64,000 nt of DNA from Acidobacteriaceae bacterium (GTDB lineage: Bacteria > Acidobacteriota > Terriglobia > Terriglobales > Acidobacteriaceae): positions 124,001-188,000 of the forward strand of contig JAPWKG010000004.1 in NCBI GenBank assembly GCA_028283625.1. Direction: 5' to 3'. Under the pieces are notes generated by a model. It was not told where the DNA came from and ran no database searches. It was given only the letters and a program-made list of their open reading frames with translations. This document shows, one piece after another, positions 104 to 9,715 of this stretch. Made by a program: the position numbers and the translations under genes. The first letter of the stretch is position 1. Every line of letters starts with the position of its first letter.

Positions 104-132
104 CAAAAGCCGCAACCTTTAGGGTCGCGGCT
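104..132 (-). terminator. intrinsic terminator 31 nt before trpB start
   Basis: 10-bp stem AGCCGCGACC / GGTTGCGGCT with a CTAAA loop and a following T-rich tract, read on the minus strand. It ends about 30 nt before the trpB ATG, so it would stop transcription before the gene: the expected place for an attenuator and not for a gene-end terminator. Confidence 0.65.
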
Positions 133-229
133 CAGGGGGTCTTTGAACTTGGCTTGAAGCTGGTACTTCGTGTTACTTCGCTTCTCGCAGGCTCAGTCCG
201 CCGTCGCCGCTACCGGGTGCCAGTAGCGG
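108..229 (-). promoter_or_regulatory. candidate transcription attenuator upstream of trpB
   Basis: Four arms are visible on the minus strand. Arm 1 CCGCTAC (223-229) pairs perfectly with arm 2 GTAGCGG (within 207-214). Arm 3 CCGCGACC (123-130) pairs with arm 4 GGTTGCGG (110-117) inside a 10-bp stem (108-117 with 123-132), followed by CTTTTGCTTT, an intrinsic terminator. Arm 2 GGTAGCGG could instead pair with arm 3 with a single mismatch, forming an antiterminator. Arm 1 overlaps the Tyr and Trp codons of the leader peptide, just after its Phe run. A ribosome stalled on Phe, Tyr or Trp would mask arm 1 and free arm 2. The 76-nt gap between arms 2 and 3 is long for this class. Confidence 0.6.
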
Positions 230-267
230 AACGGAAAGAAGAAAAACGGGCTGGCAAAGTTCTGCAT
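193..267 (-). CDS. aromatic-amino-acid leader peptide of the trpB attenuator
   Basis: A 24-codon open frame in the trpB leader, running from ATG at 265-267 to TGA at 193-195. It reads MQNFASPFFFFPFRYWHPV followed by AATAD. It has six Phe codons (four consecutive at 235-246), then one Tyr and one Trp codon. This is the composition of classical attenuator leaders such as PheL and PheM of enterobacteria, though here it sits before trpB. The Tyr-Trp codons lie inside the first arm of a hairpin (see regulatory feature). No good Shine-Dalgarno precedes the ATG, and the frame stays open upstream, so the start is uncertain. The function would be ribosome stalling when aromatic aminoacyl-tRNA is scarce. 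Confidence 0.6.
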   Translation of the reverse strand: MQNFASPFFFFPFRYWHPVAATAD

Positions 268-485
268 CGAGAAAAAGCGTAACCCGCGACAAGGCTCCAG
301 TGCAAGCGCTCTATTCCAGAACGGCCGATTTCAGTACGGAAAAGAAGACGCAGGTATCTCATTCTGCACGGCCACGATATTCGACCGGATTGTCACAGTG
401 ACGTGAATCGAATGCCCGGTTCGTACATCTTTTCTTGTGTAACGCTCGATCCGACTATGACGGACCGACCAAACAGGAGAGCCGC

Positions 486-4540: not shown

Positions 4541-4580
4541 GCAGAAAGCCCGTGAAGCTGGTGCTTCACGGGCTTTCTGC
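4541..4580. terminator. bidirectional terminator, 18-bp perfect stem
   Basis: GCAGAAAGCCCGTGAAGC (4541-4558) pairs perfectly with 4563-4580 around a TGGT loop. It lies between the convergent MBL-fold gene and aconitase. Confidence 0.75.
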
Positions 4581-4601
4581 GTTCTGCGATGTGAGTAGGG
4601 C

Positions 4602-7490
4602 TTAGGCTTTTCCTGCCAGCTGACGCAGCACATACTGCAGAATGCCGCCATGCTGGTAGTAGAGGATCTCCTGCGGTGTATCGATGCGAACGGTTGCGGA
4701 GAACTCGATGGTCTTACCTTCGTTGTTCTCTGCCACAACAGCAACGGTCTTGCCTTCGGCGAACTTCGAGTCGAGTACCTTCTTCAGGCCGACGACTTCG
4801 AAGATCTCTTCGCCCGTGAGGCCAAGCGATTCGACGTTCTGACCTTCGACAAACTGCAGGGGCAGAATGCCCATGCCGACGAGGTTCGAGCGGTGGATAC
4901 GCTCGTAGCTCTCCGCGATCACGAAGCGGATGCCGAGCAGGCGCGGTCCCTTGGCTGCCCAGTCACGGGACGAGCCCGAACCGTACTCCTTGCCTGCGAG
5001 AATGGCGAGCGGAGTGCCGCGTTTGGCGTACTCAACCGATGCGTCGTAGATGCTCATCTGGTCGCCTTCCGGCAGCAGACGGGTTACGCCGCCTTCCGTA
5101 CCGGGGGCCAGCTTGTTGCGAAGACGAACATTGGCAAAGGTGCCGCGGACCATGACCTCGTGGTTGCCACGACGTGAGCCGTAGCTGTTGAAGTCGGCAG
5201 GCTTCACTCCGTGGTCGGTCAGGTACTTGCCGGCCGGGCCGTTCAGCTTAATGGAGCCTGCAGGGGAGATGTGGTCGGTGGTCACGGAGTCGCCTAGAAC
5301 GGCGAGCACGCGCGCGGCTTTGATCTCTTCGACTGCCGCTGGCGTAGCGGGCATACCGTCGAAGTACGGTGCCTTGCGGATGTAAGTGGAGTCCAGCTCC
5401 CAGCCATACGTGTCGCCGAGCGGGAACTTCAACTGCTGCCAGTTGGCATCGCCGTCAGCTACCTTGGCGTACTGGGTCTTGAACATCTCGGAGTCGATCG
5501 AGGCATGCACTGCATCGGAGACTTCCTTTTGCGTCGGCCAGATATCGCGCAGGAAGATGGGCTTGCCATCCTTGCCCTTGCCCAGCGGCTCGGAGTCGAA
5601 GTCGTGCGAGATGTGGCCTGCGAGCGCATAGGCCACCACCAGCGGCGGGGACATCAGGTAGTTGGCGCGAACCTCCGGCGAGATACGGCCTTCGAAGTTA
5701 CGGTTGCCGGAGAGTACGGAGACCGCGACGAGACCATGCTCCTCGATGGACTTTGAAACGTCCGTCGGCAGGGGACCGGAGTTCCCGATACAGGTGGTGC
5801 AGCCGTAGCCGACAACCTGGAAGCGTAGCTTGTCGAGGTAGGAGAGCAGCCCCGCGCGCTCATAGTAGTCGGTCACAACGCGCGAGCCCGGTGCGAGCGA
5901 GGTCTTTACCCACGGCGGTGTGCTCAGGCCGGCATCGACAGCTTTCTTTGCGAGCAGGCCGGCTGCCATCATCACGTACGGGTTGGACGTGTTCGTGCAG
6001 CTGGTGATGGCCGCAATGACGATCGAGCCATCGGAGAGGTACTTGTCCGGGTTGACCCCGAAGCGTGCTTCAACGGAGTTCGCCGGCGCAACCAGAGCAT
6101 CCTTGCTGGCAAGCGGGTTCTCATGCGTGGTTGTTTTCACGACAACGCTGACCGGAACCTGCGGCGCGGGCGAACCTTCGCTGCTGGTAATGTCTCCTGT
6201 CGCCGAAGCGTGTCCGCCCTCGCCTTCCCAGCGCACCATCTGGCGCAGAGCGCTCTTGTTCGCGTTGGGACCCTGCAGTGCAGGCAGTTGCTTGGCAAAG
6301 CTGGAGCGGGTCTCTGAGAGCAGGACACGGTCCTGCGGACGCTTCGGTCCTGCCACGCTGGGCTCCACGGTTGCGAGATCCAGCTGCAGCACGGTGGAGT
6401 ACTCGGCCTCTGCCGCGTCCGCGGTGTGGAACATGCCCTGTGCCTTGTAATAAGCCTCGACGAGAGCGATCTGCTCCGCCGGGCGCCCCGAGAGACGCAG
6501 GTAGTTCAGGGTCTCGGCATCCACCGGAAAGATGCCGCAGGTTGCACCGTATTCCGGCGCCATGTTGGCGATGGTGGCACGATCGGCGAGCGGAAGGTCG
6601 CTCACGCCGGGGCCGTAGAACTCAACGAATTTACCGACAACACCCAGCTTGCGCAGCATCTCCGTCACGGTGAGAACTAGATCTGTTGCGGTGGCGCCTT
6701 CGCGCAGCTTGCCCGTCAGCTTGAAGCCGACAACCTGCGGCACCAGCATGGAGACGGGTTGGCCCAGCATCGCAGCCTCTGCTTCAATGCCTCCGACACC
6801 CCAGCCCAGAACGCCCAGACCATTGATCATTGTGGTGTGCGAGTCTGTGCCGACAACGGTATCCGGATAGGCGGTGACGGTGCCGTCGCTGTTTTCGCGC
6901 GTGAAGACGACGCGTGCCAGATACTCCAGGTTGACCTGGTGGCAGATGCCCATGCCCGGAGGTACGGCCGAGAAGTTGCGGAAAGCGGTTTGACCCCACT
7001 TGAGGAAGGCATAGCGTTCGCGATTGCGGGTGAACTCCAGAGCGGCGTTCAGATCGTAAGCATTGGCCGCGCCGTATTCATCTACCTGTACGGAGTGGTC
7101 GATGACCAGTTCGGCAGGCTGCAGCGGGTTGATCTTCTGCGGGTCGCCGCCGAGCACCTTCATGGCATCGCGCATGGCTGCGAGATCGACGATGGCGGGC
7201 ACGCCGGTGAAGTCCTGCATCAGTACGCGGGCCGGCATGTACGCGATCTCGCGCGCGGGCTCGGCTTCCGCGTCCCAGTTGGCCAGGAACTGGATGTCGT
7301 CGGCGGTGACGCTCTTGCCGTCCTCATGGCGCAGCAGGTTCTCCAGCAGGATGCGCAGAGAGAAGGGCAGCTTGGAAAGGTCAGTGCCGAGCTTGGCTGC
7401 CAGCGCGGGAAGCGAGTAGTACTGCACGGTTTGAGCGCCGGAGTTCAGCGTAGCGGCTGCTCCAAAGCTATTGGGGTTGGTGGTTGCCAT
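4602..7490 (-). CDS. acnA: aconitate hydratase A
   Basis: 962 aa, slightly longer than typical AcnA (about 890). It interconverts citrate and isocitrate in the TCA cycle using a 4Fe-4S cluster. Landmarks: the N-terminal YYSLPALAAKLG, PARVLMQDFTGVPAIVDLAAMRDAM, GTDSHTTMINGLGVLGWGVGGIEAEAAMLGQP (substrate and cluster Ser/His region), IAAITSCTNTSNP (cluster Cys), VGYGCTTCIGNSGPL (two further cluster Cys) and, in the swivel domain, GDSVTTDHISPAGSI, GSRRGNHEVMVRGTFAN and GSGSSRDWAAKGP. Extra length sits in a linker around residues 395-460. Ribosome site GAGGAG lies upstream of the ATG. Encoded singly. Confidence 0.96.
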   Translation of the reverse strand: MATTNPNSFGAAATLNSGAQTVQYYSLPALAAKLGTDLSKLPFSLRILLENLLRHEDGKSVTADDIQFLANWDAEAEPAREIAYMPARVLMQDFTGVPAIVDLAAMRDAMKVLGGDPQKINPLQPAELVIDHSVQVDEYGAANAYDLNAALEFTRNRERYAFLKWGQTAFRNFSAVPPGMGICHQVNLEYLARVVFTRENSDGTVTAYPDTVVGTDSHTTMINGLGVLGWGVGGIEAEAAMLGQPVSMLVPQVVGFKLTGKLREGATATDLVLTVTEMLRKLGVVGKFVEFYGPGVSDLPLADRATIANMAPEYGATCGIFPVDAETLNYLRLSGRPAEQIALVEAYYKAQGMFHTADAAEAEYSTVLQLDLATVEPSVAGPKRPQDRVLLSETRSSFAKQLPALQGPNANKSALRQMVRWEGEGGHASATGDITSSEGSPAPQVPVSVVVKTTTHENPLASKDALVAPANSVEARFGVNPDKYLSDGSIVIAAITSCTNTSNPYVMMAAGLLAKKAVDAGLSTPPWVKTSLAPGSRVVTDYYERAGLLSYLDKLRFQVVGYGCTTCIGNSGPLPTDVSKSIEEHGLVAVSVLSGNRNFEGRISPEVRANYLMSPPLVVAYALAGHISHDFDSEPLGKGKDGKPIFLRDIWPTQKEVSDAVHASIDSEMFKTQYAKVADGDANWQQLKFPLGDTYGWELDSTYIRKAPYFDGMPATPAAVEEIKAARVLAVLGDSVTTDHISPAGSIKLNGPAGKYLTDHGVKPADFNSYGSRRGNHEVMVRGTFANVRLRNKLAPGTEGGVTRLLPEGDQMSIYDASVEYAKRGTPLAILAGKEYGSGSSRDWAAKGPRLLGIRFVIAESYERIHRSNLVGMGILPLQFVEGQNVESLGLTGEEIFEVVGLKKVLDSKFAEGKTVAVVAENNEGKTIEFSATVRIDTPQEILYYQHGGILQYVLRQLAGKA

Positions 7491-7884
7491 CGGGGTCGGA
7501 TCTCCTCGGCCTCTGGACGCACTGAGGCCAGTGTGATGGCTCCTCGCAAGGGATGGCGAGCGAAGGAGCGTGACATGGGTTGTGACGGGGGAAAACAGGA
7601 GCGCGCGCGGAGCGCAGGGGCTCAGCGTCCGCGGTCATGGCGGCCTCGGCGGAATCGCTTCAAGGTTCGCAGGCTCATGGCTGTCATCTTACGCCGTACG
7701 AATTCCGGTTGGATAGTGGCACGTACGCACGATGCTGCGCAGGCTGGCGGCGTTGCTCGCGGAAGACCGCTTTTTTGCAGATTTCGAAGGGTGCTTCCAG
7801 AGGCTGTGGAATTGCATCCAACGGCACGGAGCGAGCGAAACCCGGGGCTGAGAGCCGGGTTTTACTCGAATGAGGAGATTCGTT
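7491..7884. other. divergent intergenic region acnA / lipoprotein gene
   Basis: 394 nt without a supported gene. A hairpin AAACCCGG...CCGGGTTT followed by TAC lies at 7838-7863, just before the ribosome site of the downstream lipoprotein. It could be an attenuator or a translational control stem. Nothing else was identified. Confidence 0.4.
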
Positions 7885-9666
7885 ATGTACCGCACAGCGC
7901 ACCATGCTCTTCGCACGCTGATGTTCGCCGCCGCGACCGGCTGTGTTGTTCTGGGCGTGGCTGGTTGCAACGGATGCAACACCACAGGAACGCAGCCTGC
8001 CACCATCGTGGACAACAATCCTCCGGACACCAATAACGGCCAAGACCCGGCGCTGGCCAATATGGACGCGACCGGTGCGCCGCCGGCATCCAATGCCACG
8101 ACCGCAACGCCCAGAATGCAGGGGCGGACCGCGGTTGCGGGCCAGAGCGCCAGCTATGCTCCCCAGCAAAGCAGTGAAGCGTACAGCGATGGTCAGCAGG
8201 CCCCGGCACCGATCGTAGACGCCTATAGCAATCCGCAGCAGGGCAATGCTCCGCAGTACAACGGCCCCCAGTACAACGCGCCCCAGCAGAGCGACGATCA
8301 GTACAACGGTGCATATCCGCAGCAGGCTTATGACAGCGGCTACGATCAGGGAGCCAATGACGAGCAGCAGCCGGTCTATAGCGATCAGGCGCCGCCTCCC
8401 TTGCCGGAGTATGAGCAGCCGCCCGCGCCTGAGGATAATGACCTTTGGACGCCCGGCTACTGGGGCTGGGGCAACGCAGGCTATTACTGGGTTCCCGGGG
8501 CCTGGGTGGCCGCACCCTATTACGGCGCCTTGTGGACGCCGCCCTACTGGGGTTGGTACGGCGGACGGTATCTCTTTCATCACGGCTACTGGGGACCGCA
8601 TGTCGGCTTTTACGGCGGCATCAACTACGGCTGCGGCTATATCGGCACAGGCTACTGGGGCGGCTACTGGCACGGGCATGACTTCTGGTACAACCGCTCG
8701 GTCACACGCGTGAACGTGGTGAACATTCACAACGTTTACAACCGCACGGTGGTCTATAACAACGTGCGCTACGGTGCGCAGCCCATGAACCGTGTCAGCT
8801 ACAACGGCGGACATGGCGGCATCAACATGGCTCCGCGCCCGTTTGAGATGGCTGCCATGCGTGAGCGGCATGAGGGGCCCACCACTATGCAAATGCAGGC
8901 GCACAACGCGGCGATGAATAACCGTGCGCAGTCGTTCAATGCCAACCACGGTGCGCCCTCCAGCCTTGCGGCGGCGCACGCCTACGGTCAGACAAACGCC
9001 ATCCGCGCGACGCCCACAGGCGTAACGACAGGACGCCCTGGGATGAATGGTGTGCCTGCGGGCAACGGCAATCACGGAGCTCCGAACGGCGGCTTGAACA
9101 ACAGCGTCAACCCGATGAATCGCGGCTCAGTGACAAACAATATGGCGCATCCGGGCATCGTGCAGAACGGCACCGCACCTGCGAATGCGCAGAACAGTAT
9201 GCAGCGGCACCAGAACGGAAACGTCAACGGAAATAGCCAGTTCCGTGAACAGAATGGGCAGTTCCAGCAACAGCATCAGACTGCGCAGCCGGGTTCTGCT
9301 TCACAGAGCAATATGCAGCACGGCATGGAAAATCGCCCTGCGACGACCAATACCGGAGCACGGCAACAACAGTTTGAAACACGCACGCCCGGTGCGGAGA
9401 ACATGCATTCGAACCAGCAGAACAATTGGCAGAATGTGCAGCGCCCTGCTACGGAGAGCCGTCCGTCTGTAACGCGGGAGGTTCCGCAGCAACAACAATC
9501 GCAGCGACAGAATGAGGTGCGGCACAGCGCGCCGCAGATGCACGAGATGCAGCGTCCGCAGCAGCAACAGCATGAAGTGCAGCATGCCGCACCGCAAATG
9601 CATGAGCAGCCGCATCCGCAGCACTCCGAGCCTCATGGGGGCGGAGACGGTGAGCATCATCACTAA
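7885..9666 (+). CDS. YXWGXW-repeat lipoprotein with Gln/His-rich tail
   Basis: 593 aa from ATG 7885, preceded by GAGGAG. An upstream in-frame ATG at 7870 is less likely. The signal peptide ends in a lipobox (LGVAGC, Cys about 29), so it is a predicted lipoprotein. Layout: Ala/Gln/Pro-rich spacer (30-180) with YNGPQYNAPQ repeats; an aromatic Gly-rich core (about 185-275) with PGYWGWGNAGYYWVPGAW and WTPPYWGWYGGRYLFHHGYWG, typical of YXWGXW-repeat proteins; then about 300 residues rich in Asn, Met, His and Gln, ending HGGGDGEHHH. The role is unknown; envelope surface or metal binding is possible. Terminator follows. Confidence 0.8.
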   Translation: MYRTAHHALRTLMFAAATGCVVLGVAGCNGCNTTGTQPATIVDNNPPDTNNGQDPALANMDATGAPPASNATTATPRMQGRTAVAGQSASYAPQQSSEAYSDGQQAPAPIVDAYSNPQQGNAPQYNGPQYNAPQQSDDQYNGAYPQQAYDSGYDQGANDEQQPVYSDQAPPPLPEYEQPPAPEDNDLWTPGYWGWGNAGYYWVPGAWVAAPYYGALWTPPYWGWYGGRYLFHHGYWGPHVGFYGGINYGCGYIGTGYWGGYWHGHDFWYNRSVTRVNVVNIHNVYNRTVVYNNVRYGAQPMNRVSYNGGHGGINMAPRPFEMAAMRERHEGPTTMQMQAHNAAMNNRAQSFNANHGAPSSLAAAHAYGQTNAIRATPTGVTTGRPGMNGVPAGNGNHGAPNGGLNNSVNPMNRGSVTNNMAHPGIVQNGTAPANAQNSMQRHQNGNVNGNSQFREQNGQFQQQHQTAQPGSASQSNMQHGMENRPATTNTGARQQQFETRTPGAENMHSNQQNNWQNVQRPATESRPSVTREVPQQQQSQRQNEVRHSAPQMHEMQRPQQQQHEVQHAAPQMHEQPHPQHSEPHGGGDGEHHH

Positions 9667-9684
9667 TTGTTGTCTGCTCGACAC

Positions 9685-9715
9685 AGCAAAGCCCGCTCCT
9701 TGAGCGGGCTTTGCT
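9685..9715. terminator. bidirectional terminator, 13-bp stem
   Basis: AGCAAAGCCCGCT (9685-9697) pairs with AGCGGGCTTTGCT (9703-9715) around CCTTG, between the convergent lipoprotein gene and mntH. Confidence 0.8.

Follow-up and report, generated by a model that had tools for sequence, protein, structure and literature searches.

Between trpF and trpB, the minus strand carries an element that is very probably a ribosome-mediated, multivalent transcription attenuator for the supply of aromatic amino acids, as judged from comparative sequence analysis and a folding model. It was detected in a stretch of 64,000 nucleotides, here called the window. The conserved leader, the covarying helices, the alternative pairing and the gene contexts of many related copies were established by computation. 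The phylum would thereby gain a regulon with a predicted signal, predicted targets and a predicted mechanism, and the copies offer a natural series for how sensor codons change when a switch moves to another branch of one pathway.

Anatomy of the element in the window

The features of the element are listed in Table 1. An earlier note on this DNA had described, without stating the strand, a Phe-rich (Phe/Tyr/Trp) attenuator before trpB with a leader of 24 codons, among them six Phe, one Tyr and one Trp, with arms for the helices 1:2, 2:3 and 3:4, and with a terminator and T-tract 31 nt from trpB. Translation of the minus strand confirmed the leader and its codon content. Its core F-x-F-x-[FY]-R-Y-W is also present in the leaders of relatives. 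The Arg-Tyr-Trp and Pro-Val-Ala codons of the leader itself make up hairpin 1:2 (229-207; pairing of 229-220 with 216-207). Arm 3 offers arm 2 a second partner (214-206 against 131-123, eight of nine positions complementary), and arms 3 and 4 form a terminator-like hairpin (133-107), which is followed by the T-rich tail and, 31 nt downstream, by the trpB ATG.

Table 1. Features of the element in the window.
Feature	Position	Strand	Sequence and remarks
Candidate leader promoter	305-276	-	TTGCAC (305-300), 18-nt spacer, TACGCT (281-276)
Leader peptide ORF	267-193	-	24 codons, MQNFASPFFFFPFRYWHPVAATAD and stop codon; from translation
Arm 1	229-220	-	CCGCTACTGG; contains the Arg-Tyr-Trp codons; pairs with arm 2; covariation
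Arm 2	216-206	-	CCGGTAGCGGC; partner is arm 1 or arm 3
Arm 3	133-123	-	GAGCCGCGACC; forms the 5' half of the terminator or pairs with arm 2
Arm 4	117-107	-	GGTTGCGGCTT; 3' half of the terminator
T-rich tail of the terminator	106-97	-	TTGCTTTCTG
Likely trpB ribosome-binding site	85-82	-	GGAG
trpB start	76-1	-	ATG at 76; gene continues beyond the window edge

Without the evidence from relatives, the structure in the window stands out only moderately. The fold of 211 nt of the minus strand had a z-score of -2.7, with 2 of 200 shuffles equally stable, and a terminator scan of 2.4 kb on both strands found four terminators versus a chance expectation of 2.3. A plus-strand reading of the interval 104-270 was rejected; its fold is unremarkable (z = -1.25), and the leader lies on the minus strand. 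The element is regarded as real because, in the comparison with relatives that the earlier note had proposed as a check, the leader core, the order of the arms and the terminator were found again upstream of trpB, and because both helices, 1:2 and 3:4, show covariation among the copies. Conservation and covariation thus support the proposed attenuator.

The operon downstream of the element

The operon was read from the neighbouring contig stretch (L002) and has the order trpB-trpA-chorismate mutase-DAHP synthase, with all genes on one strand. The Pfam domains of the four gene products are PALP, Trp_syntA, CM_2 and DAHP_synth_1; the PALP protein was called TrpB based on its own sequence and the neighbouring trpA. 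Because a chorismate mutase and a DAHP synthase are included, the operon serves all three aromatic amino acids in addition to the last step of Trp synthesis. The Phe codons that guard a trp operon, which had been considered unexpected, are thus explained by the genes further downstream and are not odd. The suggestions that the element senses a general aromatic shortage or reflects the Phe-Tyr-Trp branch point have gained support, from the genes of this operon as well as from sister copies upstream of aroK, DAHP synthase and chorismate mutase-pheA-DAHP synthase units.

Outside the window, at 4579-9705 of the same neighbouring stretch, a thioredoxin-like gene on the opposite strand follows the DAHP synthase gene, and proB-like, proA-like and prephenate dehydrogenase (tyrA) genes are found on the strand of the operon, the last being the only one of these three annotated with Pfam.

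Distribution and gene contexts

The trpB gene was present in 142 of 150 sampled genomes of the family. Among the best 30 trpB loci (L083-L112), 12 had a leader with the same core upstream and 18 had none, a point against the proposed attenuator. The start of trpF was located within 1 kb upstream in 17 of the 18 leaderless loci versus none of the 12 leader-bearing loci.

Two covariance models were used for searches. With an E-value cut of 0.01, model R1, built from a trimmed alignment of 13 trpB leaders, had matches in 195 of the 398 genomes of the family, representing 34 of 79 genera. Model R2, built from 51 diverse copies, had matches in 121 of 399 genomes at the class level (E <= 0.001), including 49 from other families, and in 46 of 396 genomes at the phylum level (E <= 0.01), including nine from other classes. 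The 192 copies examined comprised 152 copies scored with R1, 150 of them from among the matches listed and two from named contigs, and 40 copies chosen from the R2 matches, i.e., 17 from the 49 class-level genomes outside the family, four from the nine phylum-level genomes and 19 family copies.

Nearly all copies (189 of 192) lie upstream of a gene of the aromatic pathway. The first such gene was trpB in 98 cases, aroK in 35, chorismate mutase in 29, DAHP synthase in 26 and pheA in one (L287, counted apart from the chorismate mutase group). The three copies with no downstream aromatic gene are L246 and L259, where the contig ends, and L294, a probable false match. The first genes were assigned with tblastn and a small set of reference proteins; Pfam later served to check those for aroK, pheA, chorismate mutase and DAHP synthase. 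For 18 copies with an arm 1 off the pattern the gene was assigned manually from the tblastn output, and the genus labels were also entered manually. L294 and L249 (a run of N) were left out of the leader counts, L259 and L198 (terminator not found) also out of the duplex and masking tests, and L295, L297, L300 and L312 (start not found) out of the counts that depend on the start. L003 and L123 agree in leader and spacing and possibly come from one organism.

The examined copies outside the family (17 of 17 at the class level and three of four at the phylum level) precede chorismate mutase, pheA or DAHP synthase. Because they are situated there, the Phe/Tyr form at the chorismate mutase-pheA-DAHP synthase operon is suggested, though not proven, to be the older form. 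The idea that the element is tied to trpB was rejected, based on these copies and also on the trpB genes that lack a leader where trpF is directly upstream. A tie to the chorismate mutase gene behind trpA was rejected as well, as the leaderless trpB loci also have this gene.

In the own genome, the assembly of which is 85% complete, no second copy of the attenuator was found at E <= 10, the sole other match being antisense and inside the same terminator. The 420 nt before the own aroK motif contained no such leader. Some genomes of the family have a leaderless trpB-trpA-chorismate mutase-DAHP synthase operon and a second DAHP synthase gene behind its own attenuator copy (e.g., G106; L155-L160, L229-L256 and others); the second DAHP synthase is about 46-51% identical to the first.

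Covariation and alternative pairing of the helices

In the alignment of the 51 diverse copies, which was fitted to the structure and thus leans towards it, 94.6% of the helix cells pair, and nine of the 20 pairs have changed on both sides. Such changes on both sides were found in 48 cells, compared with 9.7 in shuffles and at most 17 upon sliding. A count that is free of the structure-fitted alignment was made for the Tyr codon of the core. TAC was found together with GTA in 79 cases and TAT with ATA in 26, crossed combinations numbered four, and this triplet was fully complementary in 121 of 183 copies. A silent exchange in the Tyr codon is thus accompanied by a switch between Val and Ile in its partner codon, so that it is the RNA pairing and not the peptide sequence that is kept there. 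Also when the Tyr of the core is replaced by Ser, Thr, Cys or Phe, matching changes occur in arm 2. As is typical for attenuators, hairpin 1:2 and the intrinsic terminator 3:4 are thus both conserved.

The duplex of arm 2 and arm 3 had a mean energy of -15.0 kcal/mol, versus -5.2 for windows of the linker and -10.5 for shuffled arm 2. In 178 of 188 copies it surpassed all linker windows. In only 87 of 188 copies was it below the 5th percentile of shuffled arm 2, a low number that is explained by the G+C richness of arm 2. Own pairs of arm 2 and arm 3 were more stable than pairs swapped between genera (-15.7 vs -13.7, n = 67, p = 6e-7, ignoring kinship). An antiterminator 2:3 that is mutually exclusive with the other two hairpins is therefore supported, with the reservation that 87 of 188 copies pass the shuffled-arm test at the 5% level.

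Putative sensor codons of the leader

For comparison of the leaders, the Arg codon of the core was numbered 0. Codon -3 encodes Phe in 158 of 190 leaders, codon -1 Phe or Tyr in 153 (62 Phe, 91 Tyr; Ser or Cys in three), and codon +1 Tyr or Phe in 175. As codons -3 and -1 are both outside the modelled helices, their conservation suggests that the encoded amino acid is under selection. All four large gene groups have Phe and Tyr codons, which make up 13.6-21.7% and 8.3-14.6%, respectively, of the leader codons, compared with 4.09% and 2.86% in the long ORFs of the window. The copies thus have a short leader ORF with codons for the end products of the operon, as expected for an attenuator.

The distribution of Trp is different for the gene groups. 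At codons -2 to +4 it occurs in 89 of 97 leaders of trpB, 34 of 35 of aroK, 19 of 26 of DAHP synthase, one of 29 of chorismate mutase and in the single pheA leader (1/1). When the whole leader is regarded for copies with an assigned start, the respective numbers are 97/97, 34/34, 20/23, 4/29 and 1/1. The contrast between chorismate mutase (1/29) and trpB or aroK (123/132) at codons -2 to +4 is large (Fisher p = 2e-22, ignoring kinship), but such contrasts do not represent independent events because the gene groups largely follow clades.

At codon -3 (237-235 in the window) Phe is encoded by TTT in 155 of 158 copies, versus 218 of 601 Phe codons in the long ORFs of the window (p = 9e-64, ignoring kinship). 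A slow codon and a constraint on the RNA are two options for this excess.

Candidate promoter of the leader

Promoter-like pairs were scored by their matches to the 12 consensus positions, with 0.5 added for a 17-nt spacer and a cut of at least 7. Such a pair was found in 154 of 184 leaders. In 137 leaders it ends 3-16 nt before the leader ATG, compared with 20.25 in base-shuffled upstream regions, and the commonest distance is 10 nt. The candidate promoter in the window ends 8 nt before the ATG and is weak by itself, with six of 12 consensus matches; its score is under the cut, and it is absent from the list of the strict scan. It aligns with the conserved TTGC...TAT-like positions of the relatives. 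If the predicted promoters are used, the 5' UTR would therefore comprise only few nucleotides, and the leader mRNA is probably nearly leaderless.

Proposed mechanism and masking model

From these features we infer promoter use, ribosome stalling, antitermination and the amino acids that act, as follows. Transcription would start a few nucleotides ahead of the leader ATG, with a ribosome following the RNA polymerase and translating the leader. When charged tRNA-Phe or tRNA-Tyr, perhaps also tRNA-Trp, is scarce, the ribosome would stall on the F-x-F-x-[FY]-R-Y-W core and cover arm 1, so that arm 2 could pair with arm 3, the terminator would not form, and trpB-trpA-chorismate mutase-DAHP synthase would be transcribed. 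With a good supply, the ribosome would reach the stop codon and cover arm 2, or leave and allow hairpin 1:2 to form, and hairpin 3:4 would end transcription. Elsewhere in the phylum, where the element lies upstream of aroK, DAHP synthase and chorismate mutase-pheA-DAHP synthase units, its codons tend to suit the gene that it precedes.

A masking model was used, in which the partition function of the nascent transcript up to arm 3 is calculated and the part covered by the ribosome is kept unpaired. It was applied to 64 leaders, with no genus contributing more than two to a gene group, and the assumed footprint sizes were 9, 12 and 15 nt. With the 12-nt footprint, the mean capture of arm 3 by arm 2 was 0.19 without a ribosome and 0 with a ribosome at the stop codon. 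It was 0.41-0.51 for stalls at codons -8 to -4, 0.59-0.64 at -3 to 0, 0.52 at +1, 0.46 at +2 (Trp) and 0.29 at +3. The peak is thus broad and not sharp, because codons -8 to -4 already give 0.41-0.51 and the ribosome-free mean is 0.19. For the window's own element the capture was 0.0 without a ribosome, 0.64-0.73 at -3 to 0, 0.48 at +1, 0.42 at +2 (Trp), 0.53 at +3 and 0.0 at the stop codon. Within the masking model, a stall at the regulatory codons therefore exposes arm 2 and a ribosome at the stop codon hides it. According to the model, Phe and Tyr would be the better sensors and Trp a weaker one, and the anatomy agrees with classical attenuation. Least certain is the sensing of Trp, because the footprint model favours stalls at Phe and Tyr codons over the Trp codon.

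Alternative explanations

The same attenuator could have Trp as its main signal before trpB, with the Phe and Tyr codons being remnants of an older Phe/Tyr switch. In accordance with this, Trp is present in every trpB leader with an assigned start, including RYG variants that have an earlier Trp. It is nevertheless unlikely, as Phe at codon -3 and Phe or Tyr at codon -1 have been kept although they are outside the helices, the modelled capture of the own element is lower for a stall at the Trp codon than at codons -3 to 0, and the Trp codon lies within arm 1 and may be kept for pairing. The good conservation of the core would also suit a nascent peptide that, similar to TnaC, halts the ribosome when a free aromatic compound is present, and not via uncharged tRNA. 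This is very improbable, because the core residues vary while the pairing with arm 2 stays, as described above for the Tyr codon, and because the exchange of Phe and Tyr at codon -1 suits codon reading better.

Some attenuators of trp genes elsewhere are translational or act via an RNA-bound protein or a tRNA, and the element could be a switch on translation or of the TRAP, T-box or riboswitch type, with an incidental ORF. Against this highly improbable explanation, no Rfam family, T-box included, reached its gathering score at the element; the hairpin is contained in the leader ORF and keeps its register with the aromatic codons in copies before different genes; and hairpin 3:4 with its T tail is upstream of the trpB ribosome-binding site. 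The Trp_leader family (RF00513) did not match at the element, its only hit being at 649-729 on the opposite strand with 20.0 bits (cut-off 41), and the other weak hits, all below threshold, were at 602-754, apart from one plus-strand hit of 12.8 bits at 112-254. A chance neighbourhood of an aromatic-rich small ORF and an ordinary terminator, devoid of a joint function, could be proposed because fold and terminator of the window are not very unusual, but it is exceedingly improbable, given that the element is conserved and covaries across many genera and at different genes. The multivalent attenuator that reads charged tRNAs is thus the preferred explanation.

Comparison with known systems

The leader-peptide attenuators of trp, pheA and pheST of Escherichia coli each read one amino acid. 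They share with the new element the short leader ORF with end-product codons, the hairpins 1:2, 2:3 and 3:4, and the terminator before the first gene. In contrast, Phe, Tyr and Trp codons occur together in the new element, it is found at several aromatic genes, and it has no Rfam match. E. coli ilvGMEDA has a multivalent attenuator for the branched-chain amino acids. There, too, one leader carries codons for several end products of a branched pathway, whereas here the codons are aromatic and a family of copies is present on several operons. In the aromatic supraoperon of Bacillus subtilis, trp genes are also linked with DAHP synthase and chorismate mutase, together with tyrA; it is controlled by TRAP and not by a leader peptide as here.

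The trpL RNA of Sinorhizobium meliloti begins at the leader ATG (PMC7298713). It is likewise a leader-peptide attenuator with an RNA start at or near the ATG (here predicted few nucleotides before it), but it reads only Trp and precedes trpE(G), while the new element has Phe, Tyr and Trp codons and precedes trpB (PMC7298713). For gamma-proteobacteria, another report lists a pheA leader in Shewanella and cites attenuation of aroF by Tyr-tRNA (PMC2659441). In these proposals, too, an aromatic amino acid would attenuate DAHP synthase or pheA, in another phylum and with separate elements for each gene (PMC2659441). Actinobacteria are described as lacking conserved structures before Phe or Tyr operons (PMC1262725), and in 2010 the predicted attenuators of the present phylum were almost without assigned functions (PMC2965389). 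A literature search, with most subscription journals outside its reach, found no published account of this element. New is the family of multivalent aromatic attenuators over several operons; leader-peptide attenuation itself was already known.

An evenly balanced proposal is that one old attenuator family runs a phylum-wide aromatic regulon. A Phe/Tyr sensor would have been present before chorismate mutase-pheA-DAHP synthase first, the aroK, DAHP synthase and trpBA copies would have followed with a gain of Trp, and the codons would have been tuned for each branch.

Further features of the intergenic region

A small ORF on the plus strand (486-638), divergent from the trpB leader, encodes a His-rich, secreted-looking peptide of 50 amino acids (MKNARYVL...ISAHR). 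Homologues were found in eight of 28 genomes of the genus, including the own, and by coordinates the ORF is directly divergent from the trpB leader in at least four other genomes (G158, G236, G188, G311). Between this ORF and trpF lies a strong inverted repeat (about 680-735), flanked by runs of A at one side and runs of T at the opposite side, which is likely a two-way terminator; it attracts weak matches of Rfam leader families below threshold.
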